DNA of 64,000 nt from Isoptericola halotolerans (GTDB lineage: Bacteria; Actinomycetota; Actinomycetes; Actinomycetales; Cellulomonadaceae): assembly GCF_003003075.1 (NCBI RefSeq), contig NZ_PVTX01000009.1:1-64000 (forward strand), read 5' to 3'. The notes below the pieces were generated by a model, which was not told the origin of the DNA, ran no database searches, and was given only the letters and a program-made list of their open reading frames with translations. A program made the translations under genes and the position numbers. This document shows, piece after piece, positions 26,721 through 32,854 of the stretch. Position 1 is the stretch's first letter. Every line of letters begins with the position of its first letter.

Positions 26721-27758
26721 TCACACCGCGGCGCGCTCCGCCAAGGACTCCGCGACCCGGCCCAGGTTGGCCAGTCCCGCCCGGTGGTCGTCGACGGCCG
26801 CCGGCGTCGAACGCGGGGCCGTGAGCAGCGTGAGCGACTCCAGCCCGGCGGCAGGCAGCCCGACCCGACGCCACGGCTCGGCGACGAGCCGGACCAGCTC
26901 GCCGAGCTGCGGGCCCGCGCACTGGGACACGGCAGCCGGCGGCAGACCGGCCCACAGCGCCACCTCGCGCTCCGTCGCGCGGGCGACGAGCTCCCACGCG
27001 CGTTCGTTCCAGCCGTCAGGACCCACCTGCGCCAGGTCCAGGCCGATCGCGTCGGCGCCGGCCAGCACCGCCGGCGGGATGCCCACCCAGGTGCCGCCGA
27101 GGTGCACCACGACCGTGGCGCCGGCGTCGTGCAGGGCCTCGATCACGGGACGCAGGCCCTCGACGACGCCGGGCCCGTCCACGCCGCGGATCCTCGAGTA
27201 GCCGGAGAAGGTGGGCAGCACGCCCGCGTGCACCTGTCCCAGCAGCGGCTCGGAGAGCTGCACGACGACCTCCGCGCCGGGCACCTGGTCACGGACGTCG
27301 GCCACGTGCTCCGCCAGGCCGGTCGCCAGCCCGAGCGCGAGATCCGCGCGTGCGCCGGTGTCGGCGAGGACCCGGTCACCGCGCGCCGACCACAGCTCCG
27401 CGGCCAGCGTCCAGGGCCCCGTCACCTCGACCGTCAGCGGGCCCGCGTAGCCGTGGGCCGCGACGGCGAGCGCACCCAGGTCCTCGCGGAGCAGGGCACG
27501 GGCACGTCGCTCGTCCACCCCCGGACGGTCGGCGAGCTTCCAGCCGTGCGGTCCCAGCTCGATCGCCGTCTCGGCCAGGAGGATCGCGGTACGTCCCGTG
27601 GACCCGGCACCCGGCCCGCGCTCCGTGAGCTGAGCGAGGAACGGCACGGCGCCGACGCCGGTCGGCAGCTCCGCCAGGTCGTCGACGACCGTCTGCTGGG
27701 CCACCAGCACGTCGCGCTCGCCACCCGGCCACGGCCCGTGGCCGCTGACGGCGGTCAT
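26721..27758 (-). CDS. MetE C-terminal domain-like protein
   Basis: 345 residues related to the C-terminal catalytic barrel of cobalamin-independent methionine synthase (UROD/MetE-like superfamily): [41 protein letters not shown]. The zinc-site HxC motif of MetE is not intact (VVHLGG), although a Cys occurs in SQCAGP. True methionine synthase activity is therefore doubtful. The start ATG overlaps the mnmA stop by 4 bp. The pairing with mnmA recurs in Actinobacteria and hints at a tRNA-thiolation or sulfur-related role. Confidence 0.82.
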
Positions 27759-28909
27759 GCGGGCACCGTCCCGCCCGGCACACCGGTCGTGACCGGCGCG
27801 TCGCGCCATGCCCGCGACACGGTCGCCTGGCCCAGCACCCGGGTCCCGCGGTAGGCCACGACGGACTGCCCCGCCGCGATGCCGCGGAGCTCCTCGCCGA
27901 GCCGGAGCTCGAGACCGTCCGCGCCGCCGTCGGCCCCCGGGACCGCCCGTACCTGCGCCGGGACGGCCCGGCCGTGCGCCCGCACCTGGACCTCGCAGTC
28001 CGTCCAGTCCGTCGCCGCCGGGGCGAACCAGACCGCCCGGTCCCCCGCGATCCGGTCCACGCTCAGGAGCTCCGCCGGACCGACGACGACGGTGTTCGAG
28101 CCGGTGTCGACGTCGACGACGTAGCGTGCTCGTCCGTCCGGGGCCGGTCGGCCCAGCCCGAGACCCTTGCGCTGCCCGACCGTGTACGCGTAGGCGCCCT
28201 GGTGCTCGCCCACCACGTTGCCGTCGGTGTCGCGCACCTCGCCCGGCTGCGCGCCGAGGCGCGAGCGCAGGAAGCCGCGGGTGTCGCCGTCGGCGACGAA
28301 GCAGATGTCGTAGGAGTCGGGCTTGGCGCTCACGGAGAGGCCACGGCGCTCCGCCTCGGCACGTACCTCGTCCTTCGAGGCGAAACCACCGAGCGGGAAC
28401 ATCGCCCGGTCCAGGCGCTCCGGGCCCATCACGGCCAGCACGTAGGACTGGTCCTTGGCGTCGTTCGGCGACCGGTGCAGCTCACGCGTCACGGTCCCGT
28501 CGGGAGCCTCCTGGGCCTCCACGCGGGCGTAGTGGCCGGTCGCGACGGCGTCGAAGCCCAGCGCGGTGGCTTTGTCCAGCAACGCCTCGAACTTGATGTG
28601 CTCGTTGCAGCGCACGCACGGGTTCGGGGTGCGGCCCGCCGAGTACTCCGACAGGAAGTCGGCGACCACCGTCTCCTCGAACGTCTCGGACAGGTCCCAC
28701 ACGTAGTAGGGGATGCCGAGCACGTCCGCGGCGCGGCGCGCGTCGCCCGCGTCCTCGATGGAGCAGCAGCCGCGCGAACCGGTGCGGAACTGGTCACGGT
28801 TGCGGCTCAGGGCCATGTGCACCCCGACGACGTCGTGCCCCGCCTCGACGGCGAGCGCCGCGGCGACGGCGGAGTCCACCCCGCCGGACATGGCAGCGAG
28901 CACCCTCAT
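27755..28909 (-). CDS. mnmA: tRNA 2-thiouridine(34) synthase MnmA
   Basis: 384 residues. A PP-loop ([12 protein letters not shown], residues 6-17) adenylates U34 of tRNA; two catalytic cysteines lie in [10 protein letters not shown] (about 97) and SYDICFV (about 199). The C-terminal beta-barrel ends in a QSVVAYRG segment. It uses persulfide sulfur, here supplied by the cysteine desulfurase whose gene overlaps by 4 bp upstream. Confidence 0.96.
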
Positions 28910-30147
28910 GCGACACCTCCGGACAGCGGGCGGGCGGCGACCAGACCGGCGGCCCTCGCGCGATCGGCCACCTGGGGCAGCGCCGCCAGGAGCCGGGTGA
29001 CGTCGTCGTGCGTCGACGTGGCACCGAGGGAGAAGCGCAGCGCGCCGCGGGCGTCCGTCTCGCTGACGCCCATGGCCAGCAGCACATGACTCGGCTGCGG
29101 TACCCCCGCCTGGCAGGCCGACCCCGTGGAGGCCTGGACGCCGGCGGAGTCCAGCAGGTACAGCAGGGAGTCCCCCTCGGCGCCCGGGAACGTGAAGTGC
29201 GCGTTGGCGGGCAGCCGGGCCGGAGCGCCCGACGGTGTTGTGGCGTGCGGGTCGGGCCCCCGCAGGACGGCGTCGGGCACCACGCGGCGGACCCCCGCCA
29301 CGAGCTCGTCGCGCAGCGCGCCCAGGGTGGCGGCGCGCTCCTCGCGCGCGGCGGCCGCCTCGCCGAGGGCGACGGCGAAAGCACGGATCGCCGCCGCGTC
29401 GAGCGTCCCGGAACGGACGCCGCGTTCCTGCCCGCCACCGTGGGACACGGCCTCGAGGGGCAGGTCGCGCCGGGCGAGCAGCGCCCCGACGCCGACCGGT
29501 CCGCCGAGCTTGTGGCCGGTCACGGTCAGCGCGTCGACACCCGAGGCGGCGAAGTCGACCTCGACCTGACCCACCGCCTGGACGGCGTCCGTGTGCACCG
29601 GCACGCCGTACCGGTGCGCGATCCGGACCACCTCACGGACGGGCTGGACCGTCCCGACCTCGTTGTTCGCCCACATCACGGAGACCAGCGCGACCTCGTC
29701 CGCGTGCGCGGCCAGCTCGGCGCGCAGGGCCTCCAGGTCGACCAGGCCCTCGCCGTCCACCGGCAGGAGGGTGATCTCGGCACCCGCGTGGCCGGCCAGC
29801 CAGAAGGCCGGGTCGAGCACCGCGTGGTGCTCCACGGCGGAGACCAGCACGCGGGTGCGCCGAGCGTCCTGGCTGCGCCGACCCCAGAAGATGCCCTTGA
29901 TCGCCAGGTTGTCGGACTCGGTGCCGCCACCGGTGAAGATCACCTCGCTGGGCCGGGCGCCGAGCGCCGCGGCGACCGACTCCCGCGACTCCTCGACCGT
30001 GCGGCGGGCGGCACGGCCAGCCGAGTGCAGGGACGAGGCGTTGCCGGTCCGCCCCGCCTCGGCGACGAAGGCCTCGAGCGCCGCCGCGGACATAGGTGTC
30101 GTGGCGGCGTGGTCGAGGTAGGCAGCCGGGGCCTCGGAGGATGTCAC
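28906..30147 (-). CDS. Cysteine desulfurase (IscS/NifS type)
   Basis: 413 residues, PLP-dependent class V aminotransferase fold. PLP lysine in [11 protein letters not shown] (about 213) and catalytic Cys in TGSACQAG (about 344). It removes sulfur from cysteine as a persulfide for MnmA and other acceptors. GTG at 30147 is chosen: a TAGACT -10 at 30156-30161 overlaps the possible earlier TTG start and lies 8 nt before this GTG, so the message is probably leaderless. It is the first gene of the desulfurase-mnmA-MetE-like operon. Confidence 0.94.
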
Positions 30148-30155
30148 GGTCACCA

Positions 30156-30161
30156 AGTCTA
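30156..30161 (-). promoter_or_regulatory. -10 element of the desulfurase-mnmA operon
   Basis: Minus-strand TAGACT, 8 nt before the GTG at 30147. No good -35 is seen. It lies next to the first unit of the 20-bp repeat array, so the array sits where activator or repressor sites would. Confidence 0.5.
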
Positions 30162-30170
30162 CGAACCACG

Positions 30171-30530
30171 GCGCGGTGGTTTCTCATCCCGCCGAGGTAG
30201 TGCGGGGTTGCGCGAGGTAGTAGCGCTCGCGCCGAGGTAGTAGGGCTTGTGCCGAGGTAGCGCGGGGCGGTTCGTGTGCCGCCGGGTGGCGGGTCCCGTG
30301 CACGGTCGCGTTCACGGGCGCAGGGCGCCCTCCACTTCGGGACTGACGACCGTGCACGGGACCCGACACCCGGCTTCGACGTTCCCGCCCGGCGCGACCT
30401 CACGCAAGGCGGCCCTACCTCGCGCGGCGCGCTACTACGTCGGCGGGTGGGGCACTACCTCGGCGGACGACCCACTACCTCGGTGCGAGCGGCACTACCT
30501 CGGCGGGTGGGGCACTTCCTCGGCGGGGGT
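30171..30530. repeat. Convergent 20-bp-period repeat array
   Basis: The non-coding 30157-30577 interval holds a regular array. Four direct units with core GCCGAGGTAG begin at 30191, 30211, 30231 and 30251. Six inverted units with core CACTACCTCGGC begin in blocks 30411, 30431, 30451, 30471, 30491 and 30511, with a degenerate one at 30391. Spacing is exactly 20 bp on both sides. The two half-arrays face each other across the inverted repeat at 30281-30374. No open frame here resembles a protein. Confidence 0.9.
30281..30374. repeat. 28-bp inverted repeat at the centre of the array
   Basis: Arms at 30281-30308 and 30347-30374 are complementary over 28 bp with one mismatch; the inner 19 bp (30290-30308 with 30347-30365, CGGGTCCCGTGCACGGTCG) are perfect. 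The loop is 38 bp. RNA or extruded single-stranded DNA would form a very stable hairpin nested inside the pairing of the flanking 20-bp units. Confidence 0.9.
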
Positions 30531-30577
30531 ACGACCCCCGGGTCCGGGGGTCGTACCGCGTCGGGGTTTCCCGACGG

Positions 30578-32854
30578 TCAGTCTCGCCCGCCGCGGAACT
30601 GCTCGCCGGCGCGGGGGTTGTAGGACGCCCGGTTGTCCGAGCCCTTGCCCCGGCCGCCACGACCGCCCGGGAAGGGACCCGGCCCGTCGTGCCGGTCGCG
30701 CCCGTTCCCGCGACCCTTGCCCTTGCCGTGGCCCTTGCCCGGGTGCTCGTCCGCGACGTCGCTCCGGTAGACCTGGATCGTCGACGGCCGGGGGCCGCGC
30801 CAGGCACCGGCCGGCACCTCCTCGCCCTCCTCCAGGTAGTCCGGGAAGTACGACGTCTGCGCCCCCCAGGTGCCGTCGTCGCCCGGGTGCTGGACGTTGA
30901 CGTACGCCATGGAGTCGCGGACGTCCACCAGCGGGCCGCAGGTCTCGGCGCGGCGCGGCACGGAGAGGAACTGCTCCACGCGCCCCCGACGACGCCCGTC
31001 CAGGGTGACCTTGAACAGCCCGTCGGCCTTCTGGATCGACGACGGCTGACCGTCGGTGGAGATCCACAGGTTCCCGTCGGTGTCGAACGCGAGGTTGTCC
31101 GGGCAGGAGATCGGCGAGACCTTCTCGGCCGGGTAGCCCGAGAAGTAGGTCGAGTCGTCGACCTCCGGGTCGCCGGCGACGAGGAGCAGGTTCCAGGTGA
31201 ACGTGGTGGCCGTCTGGTCGCCGCCGTCCTCGATGATCTCCACCACGTGCCCGTGGCGGTTGGAGCTGCGCGGGTTCGCCTCGTCGGCCGGCGCGTTCGA
31301 CCCGACCCCACGGTTCGAGTTGTTGGTGCAGGCGACGTAGACCCGACCGGTGAACGGGTTGGGCTCGACGTCCTCCGGCCGGTCCATCTTCGTCGCGCCG
31401 AGCGCGTCGGCCGCGACGCGCGTGAAGACCAGCACCTCGGCGAGCGACATGCCGTCCACCTGCGACTCGCCGTCGAGCACCAGCGGGAGCCACTCACCGG
31501 TGCCGTCGAAGGAGCCGTCGGAGGGCACCGCGCCGGTGCCGTCGATCTCGGAGGCCGGCGAGTCGCCCGTGAAGCGGGCCACGTAGAGGTCGCCCTCGCT
31601 GAGCAGCGTCTTGTTGTGCTCGCGTGCCCAGCGGCTGTTGCCCTTGCGCATGCGCTCGGCGGAGACGAACTTGTAGACGTAGTCGAACCGCTCGTCGTCG
31701 CCCATGTAGACCACCGCGCGGTCGTCGTCGGACATGATGACGTTCGCGCCCTCGTGCTTGAGGCGGCCCAGCGCGGTGTGCTTGACGGGCGCGGCGTCCG
31801 GGTCGTACGGGTCGAGCTCGACGACCCAGCCGAAGCGGCGGTTCTCGTTCTCGTAGCCGGCGTTGTTGCCGTCGAACCGCGGCTCGTCGAGCTCCCAGCC
31901 GTAACCGGTCGGGGCGTTGCGCAGGCCGTAGCGGGCGTCGCGCGGGTCGGCGCCGTCCACCCGCAGGTAGCCGTGGAAGTTCTCCTCGCCCGAGACGACG
32001 GTGCCCCACGGGGTGGTCCCGCCGGCGCAGTTGTTCAGCGTGCCGAGGACACGCGTCCCGGTCGGGTCCGCGACCGTCCTCAGCAGGTCGTCACCGGCCG
32101 CGGGACCGTCGATCTCGAACTCGGTACCGATGTGGATCCGGCGGTTCAGCCGTGCGATGCGGTCGTACTCCCAGGGCGTGCCCTCCCGGTCGCGCCGCAG
32201 CTCGACCACCGACATGCCGTGGGCGGCGCGCTCGATCGCACGGCGCGTGGCGGCGTCGTACGACGCGTCGAACATGATGTCGGGGTTCGTGTACTCGTGG
32301 TTGGACACGAGCACGCCGCGCCGACCACGACGGGTCTCGACCATGGACCGGATGTGCTTCGGGTCCTCGGGCAGGATGTCGAGGTAGTCGCAGTTGTAGC
32401 CGAACTGTCGCGCCTGCTGCTCCGGGCTCTGGCGGGCCGGGTCGAACGCGCGGCCGCCGGGCAGGATCGGGTCGCCCCAGCGGATGATCGGCGACCACTC
32501 GTAGCCCTCCGGCACGACGAACTGGTCGTTCTCCATCGGCTGCGCGGCGATGGCACCGAAGGCGAGGCCCTTGCCGCGTCCTCGACCGCCGGCCGCGGCC
32601 GGCTCGGCACCGAGGACCTCGGCACCCACGACGACGGCGGCCGCGGCGGCCGCGACACCGCCCAGCATGACGCGACGGCTCAGGGCCCGGGACGCGACGT
32701 CGCGGAAGTACTCGTTGGCGCTGCGGTTCGGCGCGGGGTGCGCGCAGGCGTCGGCGCACTTGTAGCGGCACGTCGCGGCGGCGCGCTTGCCGCGCGCGTA
32801 GTGCGGGGCCACCGTGACGGGCAGCTGGGGGCGGGACTCGGGGGCGATCGTCAT
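30578..32854 (-). CDS. PhoX/DUF839 family phosphatase-like protein
   Basis: 758 residues with a twin-arginine type signal well inside the N terminus (SRRVMLGGVAAAAAAVVVG, about 55-75), preceded by a Cys-containing leader found in actinobacterial PhoX relatives. The body is a beta-propeller of the DUF839/PhoX family (GYEWSPIIRWGDPI, GVLVSNHEYTNPD, NNCAGGTTPWGT), which in known members binds Ca/Fe and hydrolyses phosphate esters outside the cell. The C-terminal 70 residues are Gly/Arg/Lys-rich and probably disordered. GGAG precedes the ATG. No pho box was identified. Confidence 0.9.
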   Translation of the reverse strand: MTIAPESRPQLPVTVAPHYARGKRAAATCRYKCADACAHPAPNRSANEYFRDVASRALSRRVMLGGVAAAAAAVVVGAEVLGAEPAAAGGRGRGKGLAFGAIAAQPMENDQFVVPEGYEWSPIIRWGDPILPGGRAFDPARQSPEQQARQFGYNCDYLDILPEDPKHIRSMVETRRGRRGVLVSNHEYTNPDIMFDASYDAATRRAIERAAHGMSVVELRRDREGTPWEYDRIARLNRRIHIGTEFEIDGPAAGDDLLRTVADPTGTRVLGTLNNCAGGTTPWGTVVSGEENFHGYLRVDGADPRDARYGLRNAPTGYGWELDEPRFDGNNAGYENENRRFGWVVELDPYDPDAAPVKHTALGRLKHEGANVIMSDDDRAVVYMGDDERFDYVYKFVSAERMRKGNSRWAREHNKTLLSEGDLYVARFTGDSPASEIDGTGAVPSDGSFDGTGEWLPLVLDGESQVDGMSLAEVLVFTRVAADALGATKMDRPEDVEPNPFTGRVYVACTNNSNRGVGSNAPADEANPRSSNRHGHVVEIIEDGGDQTATTFTWNLLLVAGDPEVDDSTYFSGYPAEKVSPISCPDNLAFDTDGNLWISTDGQPSSIQKADGLFKVTLDGRRRGRVEQFLSVPRRAETCGPLVDVRDSMAYVNVQHPGDDGTWGAQTSYFPDYLEEGEEVPAGAWRGPRPSTIQVYRSDVADEHPGKGHGKGKGRGNGRDRHDGPGPFPGGRGGRGKGSDNRASYNPRAGEQFRGGRD

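Follow-up and report, generated by a model that had tools for sequence, protein, structure and literature searches.

Phased arrays of an 11-nucleotide word at gene 3' ends in Isoptericola and its relatives, with a putative role in termination or insulation

The uptake sequences of the Neisseriaceae and Pasteurellaceae are short words with species dialects that form inverted pairs at gene ends. Eukaryotic rDNA terminators (TTF-I Sal boxes, Reb1) are orientation-specific protein sites that stand in rows just past the transcribed unit. GTAG REPs are dispersed repeats that lie 3' of genes, whether the neighbours are convergent or unidirectional, and the TAG of the repeat is used as a stop codon, as the accessible part of the source sets out (PMC3733652). 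Intrinsic terminators often lack the T-run in other bacteria too, according to the available portion of a further paper (PMC8355165). Here we describe rows of a short phased word at the 3' ends of genes in Isoptericola and its relatives. In the literature available for searching, no description of these arrays was found; a paper on the AK164 genome gives a total of 566 tandem repeats and, in its available part, does not describe these arrays (PMC10425560). To all appearance they form a class of intergenic DNA that has gone unrecognised in this group.

The window, the whole 64,000-nucleotide stretch of the Isoptericola halotolerans genome that was analysed, has a gap of 421 nt between phoX and a cysteine-desulfurase-like gene, both on the minus strand (Table 1). 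In this gap a 28-bp inverted repeat is flanked by seven minus-strand words on one side and four plus-strand words on the other, each row stepping by exactly 20 nt. On the plus strand GAGGTAG starts at 30194, 30214, 30234 and 30254; three of these four copies match the 10-mer GCCGAGGTAG exactly, and the one at 30211 reads CGCGAGGTAG. The high coordinates of the minus-strand words are 30521, 30501, 30481, 30461, 30441, 30421 and 30401 (all steps exactly 20), with four of the seven exact and three carrying one mismatch. The arms of the inverted repeat (30281-30308 and 30347-30374) are 96% complementary. The convergent phased 20-bp array around a 28-bp palindrome, which had been described in a sequence-only reading of this DNA, is real. 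A perfect 14-bp inverted repeat between the minus-strand array and phoX (30528-30541 and 30544-30557) was absent from that reading's list. Along the phoX 3' UTR the order is a small hairpin, the perfect 14-bp hairpin, seven sense words, the central hairpin, four antisense words and the desulfurase start. As a control, six rearranged heptamers gave no array in the window. No intrinsic terminator (a G+C-rich hairpin followed by a T-run) was found in 30100-30620, where hairpins without a T-run do occur. The block TTCGTAGACT at the desulfurase start is common to 17 of the 18 genomes read, G005 having TTCGTAGGAT instead; a sigma-70 search gave no match at this block, which by inspection may be the -10 region of the desulfurase promoter.

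Table 1. Features of the phoX-desulfurase interval and its neighbours, in window coordinates
Feature	Coordinates	Strand	Description
mnmA-like ORF	27755-28909	-	follows the desulfurase gene; named by inspection
cysteine-desulfurase-like gene	28906..30156	-	Aminotran_5; downstream of the array; codon-score caller starts at 30153
conserved block TTCGTAGACT	30155..30166	-	at the desulfurase start; promoter-like by inspection only
array of 4 words (GAGGTAG)	30191..30263	+	antisense arm adjoining the desulfurase gene; opposed to both flanking genes
central hairpin, second dispersed family	30278..30377	-	variable self-complementary stem (28-bp palindrome) and conserved head
array of 7 words	30392..30522	-	oriented with phoX, whose stop lies 56 nt from the first word
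perfect 14-bp inverted repeat, 2-nt loop	30528..30557	-	hairpin without T-run, between phoX and the sense array
phoX	30578..32854	-	Pfam PhoX; 3' end bears the sense array

The word recurs with 20-bp periodicity in the genome and its relatives, where the sequence-only reading had proposed to look for it. The I. halotolerans genome contains 144+92 = 236 exact GAGGTAG pairs at a spacing of 20, and the reversed motif gives 0+0. Widening the permitted spacing to 7-37 raises the count to 147+96 (reversed control 0+2), and 236 of these 243 pairs lie at exactly 20. Such spacing-20 pairs occur in 12 of 18 genomes of Isoptericola/Krasilnikoviella (just three pairs in G012) and in none of 20 other genomes from the same draw. 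With three words required and a second core, CGAGTCAG, admitted, 14 of the 18 genomes match, G002, G009 and G012 mainly through CGAGTCAG. This search found no three-word array in G003, G005, G008 or G013, so any function of the arrays is dispensable; G008 shows that the array system can be missing. Most genes have no array, a point against the 3'-end reading proposed below: on contig C1 of I. halotolerans (720 kb), 642 genes were called and 13 array places found. CRISPR is unlikely given the 11-nt word, the 9-nt spacer and the many loci.

A family-wide scan for three words with the core relaxed to CGAGnnAG matched 27 of 221 genomes and 7 of 25 genera. Several of the matches outside the genus amount to one to a few places each. 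G229, from another genus, gave 68+51 matches, spelled mainly CGAGATAG or CGAGTTAG, with a control of 6+16 that makes this count less clean. Organisms among the matches listed are Isoptericola, Krasilnikoviella flava, Oerskovia flava, a Cellulosimicrobium and one record labelled Sphaerisporangium cinnabarinum. A four-word pattern matched only one of 361 genomes from other families of the order, and that match is a 10-bp repeat. Ten viral contigs with matches were rejected, nine as 10-bp simple repeats and one (L123) as a perfect 20-bp repeat. Matches in at least six off-family genomes (Halorubrum, Marseilla, a cyanobacterium, Nonomuraea, an alphaproteobacterium and Anaerolineales), judged by inspection only, are mostly simple or near-perfect repeats. 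Sixteen loci (10 viral contigs and 6 off-family genomes) were excluded from the array counts. In Halorubrum salinum, three GAGGTAG words with differing spacers stand at 20-bp steps directly after a TGA (L023:4540-4586), a single locus and perhaps chance.

Across 12 genome sets, each unit consists of an 11-nt word, CGAGnnAGnnC, and nine free nucleotides. It is spelled CGAGGTAG (or CGAGTCAG) with three genome-typical letters, and these variable letters are characteristic within each genome and differ between genomes ("dialects"). The dialect is TGC in I. halotolerans (81/69/62%), GCA in AK164 and I. chiayiensis, TTC in K. flava, TAC in QY 916, and CGC in two MAGs and G001, with CGC again after TCAG in G009; it is mixed in I. 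halalbus and 3-1667. Core columns are 89-100% uniform per genome under a word detection that tolerates one mismatch in seven, the exceptions being a single column each in G001 (74%) and G002 (67%, like all G002 figures from 9 units). Steps in this set were limited to 19-21 and 39-41; the unlimited figure is the 236 of 243 given above. On a tree of eight concatenated proteins (G005 and G015 placed by one protein each), TCAG appears in {G009, G012} and separately in G002, the sister of GTAG-bearing G017.

The 9-nt spacers follow no such rule. Between arrays of one genome they agree at 0.35-0.46, against 0.37-0.47 from column composition (11 sets), and this is barely higher than the 0.33-0.35 seen between genomes. 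Identical nonamers in more than one array exceed expectation in 10 of 12 sets (11 vs 0.7 expected in K. flava, 6 vs 0.25 in bin12, 9 vs 2.6 in I. halotolerans), with the arms of one locus counted as separate arrays; some copying between arrays is therefore implied. Paired arms of a locus contribute to this recurrence, as do three related I. halotolerans loci around the central hairpin. A spacer common to both arms (at least 8 of 9 letters) is found in 51% of 47 same-locus pairs vs 5% between loci. Type IIL (MmeI-like) enzymes cut about 20 nt away; they were considered as makers of the 20-nt period and are disfavoured, since genomes usually avoid a restriction target rather than conserve it.

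Where do the arrays lie? We placed 144 of them, from contig C1, the window and 97 named loci picked for holding three exact words, relative to genes called with our own codon-score script. Of these, 119 follow a same-strand gene and so are sense-oriented at a gene 3' end; 17 of the remaining 25 are the second arm of a convergent pair whose arms lie within 500 nt. The first word of the sense arrays lies at -7 from the stop in 41 cases, -27 in 9, +4 in 15 and +5 in 8. At -7 the TAG of the first word is the stop codon, and TAG ends only 79 of the 642 genes on C1. The next gene is opposing after 71 sense arrays and on the same strand after 48, where C1 as a whole has 117 convergent and 251 tandem gene gaps. 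Sense arrays also make up 14 of 16 in further stretches of G001, 4 of 5 in G011 and 5 of 6 on contig C2 of I. halotolerans. In the TCAG genome G009 the bias is weaker and the stops are farther (15 of 22 sense, stop distances 1-207), which counts against reading these as 3'-end arrays. The idea of a single locus tied to the desulfurase promoter fits less well; the family is dispersed, and the larger arm runs in the sense of phoX. A replichore polarity, hinted at by an incomplete match list, was abandoned once G009 had been listed more fully. On the G009 contig C1 (4.04 Mb), no exact three-word TCAG array occurs between about 1.51 and 2.58 Mb, perhaps the terminus half.

Plus- and minus-strand arrays 0.5-2 kb apart bracket single genes, including those for a glyoxalase, a NUDIX protein and a TsnR-like methylase. 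We rejected a mobile cassette or transposon with array ends, since sense arrays of the genes themselves account for the general pattern. At five loci (L020:3952-4499, L202:10963-11488, L204:11374-13322, L045:1763-3109 and L107:1412-2738) single genes sit between inward-facing arrays, as if in the loop of an array pair; the genes of such loops encode a glyoxalase, a small membrane-like protein, a DUF4190 protein and a DUF559/REase-like protein (below the Pfam cut-off). At L020, L202 and L204 the gene still looks inserted in the loop. At L039:1904-4668, nadB-like and nadC-like genes (named by inspection) face each other with arrays at both nadC ends, possibly through an inversion between arrays.

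These positions recall the GTAG REP/BIME elements with their RAYT transposases. A selfish mobile repeat of that kind, spread among gene 3' ends by a transposase, would likewise be dispersed and extragenic, lie at 3' ends and in convergent pairs, and carry a GTAG that supplies TAG stops (PMC3733652, in the part available), and the recurrent identical spacers, somewhat above expectation, also fit. However, the array unit is not palindromic, single units folding like mononucleotide shuffles (mean z -0.95 to +0.48, 12 sets), and the strict 20-nt tandem phase and genome-typical letters set it apart. Moreover, the Y1 transposase PF01797 is found in 0 of 18 genomes, against 5 of 14 control genomes, and overall spacer similarity between arrays is at the column expectation. 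The arrays are unlikely to be plain copies of a single mobile element, and we consider a REP/BIME-like origin quite improbable.

Comparison of orthologous gene ends bears on conservation. Upstream of the desulfurase gene, convergent GTAG arrays are present in G017, G016, G004 and G014. Because these separate assemblies bear arrays at the same gene, an assembly artefact, which had been a concern together with uniqueness, is unlikely; nor is the array unique. At the same place G007 has three words on one side, G011 two words, G002 and G009 TCAG rows, and G006 a two-word GAGATAG hairpin, while other genomes have hairpins or neither. Four aligned orthologous stretches (two close species pairs) are identical at 139 of 143 core positions (97%, a figure inflated by a word detection that allows at most one mismatch), 38 of 50 dialect letters, 907 of 1039 flank positions (87%) and 59 of 108 spacer positions (55%). 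The spacers diverge faster than the flanks, for which selection on the words alone is insufficient; we assume a turnover of units, and this weighs against the 3'-end-array reading. Elsewhere, menD is followed by seven words in I. halotolerans, by one word at the stop in G011 and by none in G008. PAP2-like and dehydrogenase-like genes have arrays with differing spacers in I. halotolerans and G011, and a hydrolase-like gene has a degenerate word row in G011 (all three genes named by inspection).

Functionless tandem-repeat slippage at gene ends would produce clean recent duplications, and some exist: one at C1:471273, and L076 with six units where L058 has two. In the latter pair the adjoining spacer is unchanged and one dialect letter is not, which speaks for the 3'-end-array reading. 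Moreover, words are conserved and spacers are not, the spacing is maintained despite diverged spacers, and a single period with closely related cores extends over many loci and species. Neutral slippage is improbable.

Gene ends were also compared by folding, against 60 shuffles, the 100 nt that follow the stop codon of rex, ccsB, menD and the small gene that lies opposite ccsB. At rex and ccsB the long sense arrays (I. halotolerans and G017; G016 at ccsB) form no local hairpin (z 1.4 to -0.6), whereas two-word forms in G010 and G006 are near-perfect hairpins (z -11.9 to -16.0). Hairpins with z of -4 or lower occur at 7 of 10 word-less ends of rex and ccsB (all -4.2 or lower), at 3 of 8 for the small gene on the other side of the ccsB junction, and at 0 of 8 for menD (three truncated copies excluded). 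Arrays thus occupy ends where relatives keep a hairpin often, not always, which gives no more than partial support to a role in termination. Intrinsic terminators and hairpin clusters share the position of the arrays, and the short array forms are hairpins; the long forms differ in being sense-only word rows without local hairpins at the ends tested.

The words might instead act in mRNA, with an RNA-binding protein or the ribosome meeting GAGnnAG in the 3' UTR and setting mRNA stability or the end of translation, with no binding to DNA. Sense bias and nearness to the stop suit this, as do the fold of the whole phoX-desulfurase intergenic RNA (z = -15.9, 100 shuffles) and the spacers common to the arms of a locus, which pairing would favour. 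There is also a precedent, in that E. coli REPs no more than 15 nt from the stop are reported to stall ribosomes, in the part of the source available (PMC12306157). But the long sense arrays are little structured locally in their first 100 nt, the same phased words also stand in opposite-strand arms, and an RNA ligand has no obvious need for strict 20-nt spacing. We regard an mRNA role as unlikely, though a contender.

The sequence-only reading had also offered a DNA-uptake element. As DUS/USS-like sequences partly within terminators, the arrays would explain their species dialects and inverted pairs at gene ends (cf. Neisseriaceae DUS, in the available part of PMC3630211). In I. halotolerans C1 with arrays masked, CGAGGTAG is moreover in surplus antisense in genes (75 vs 45 +/- 5 in synonymous shuffles); outside arrays it is almost all antisense in genes, with 2 sense copies vs 1.2 expected, and in the Markov comparisons a count of 83 stands against 84 at maximal order and 44 at order 3. 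The same antisense surplus is found without GTAG arrays in G008 (48 vs 28), G013 (25 vs 15) and TCAG-type G009 (32 vs 21), so it is not linked to dialect or arrays. Furthermore, G009's own word CGAGTCAG occurs 0+0 times in its sampled genes, and all 33 copies of GAGGTAGTGC on C1 lie inside arrays, 0 outside. Unlike uptake sequences, then, the arrays are tandem phased rows without dialect-linked copies in genes, and we drop uptake as very improbable.

The 28-bp palindrome is a member of a second dispersed, covarying hairpin family. Its head, GTCGTCAG..CCCGAAGTGGAGG..GTGAACGCGAC, is conserved while the stems covary, with or without arrays nearby. There are six exact heads in the I. halotolerans genome. 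Allowing as many as three mismatches gives matches in 17 of 18 genomes, some of them due to chance, as the control had two hits; no head was found in the sampled stretches of G001, G008 and G013. In 21 copies, 25 of 37 pairs are changed on both sides, and covariation is 0.562 vs 0.144 when shuffled and at most 0.105 when slid. Further copies include L182:12408-12507, L226:7192-7291 and L246:1453-1552. In sampled sequence, heads lie within 300 nt of an array in 3 of 3 cases in I. halotolerans and 6 of 10 in G009. A structured RNA, another earlier suggestion, fits this palindrome (as an RNA or DNA hairpin); for the rows a repeated binding word fits best. An Rfam search of 29800-30900 gave nothing above the gathering score and two sub-threshold hits only, leaving this structured, covarying hairpin with no counterpart in Rfam.

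Placement, orientation, conservation and phasing of the arrays are established by the counts above. Repeated binding sites for one factor per genome predict what is seen: words that are kept while the spacers vary freely, a constant step, sense orientation at gene ends and genome-typical letters. The likeness to an iteron-like protein-binding site holds to this extent; a plasmid-type iteron role does not, because there are hundreds of word pairs per genome and they lie at gene 3' ends. That same placement makes termination or insulation the likeliest job. We infer a word-specific factor with an effect on termination, and tentatively, with confidence a little short of even, read the rows as 3'-end elements for termination or insulation to which such a putative factor would bind; the one described here lies between phoX and the genes for the desulfurase and mnmA. 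At the level of mechanism only, it compares with rDNA terminator arrays, where oriented site rows likewise follow the transcribed unit, at one locus there and at many genes here.

On this termination-or-insulation reading, a putative dedicated sequence-specific factor (a DNA-binding protein, or a binder of nascent RNA) would occupy the word row cooperatively, on one face, and the bound factor would stop or insulate transcription at the array. The opposing arm would handle traffic from the other side and may pair with the sense arm. Arrays would grow and shrink by whole 20-nt units, selection would preserve the words, and the dialect would drift along with the factor. In the window, the unit would close phoX and shield the desulfurase-mnmA genes, with a structured hairpin of the second family at its centre; hairpins already precede the array after phoX, which counts against the reading.

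More broadly, and more doubtfully, these arrays could be a new gene-end code, in which 11-nt words at a 20-nt phase, in a genome-typical dialect, let a dedicated, fast-evolving factor end or insulate transcription in part of one actinobacterial family, with a core that switches (GTAG, TCAG, ATAG) even between sister species. If a word-specific factor does read the arrays, they would be a bacterial sequence-specific 3'-end system unlike hairpin or Rho termination, and the natural dialects would offer a direct test of recognition and co-evolution, through the exchange of arrays from one sister species to another.
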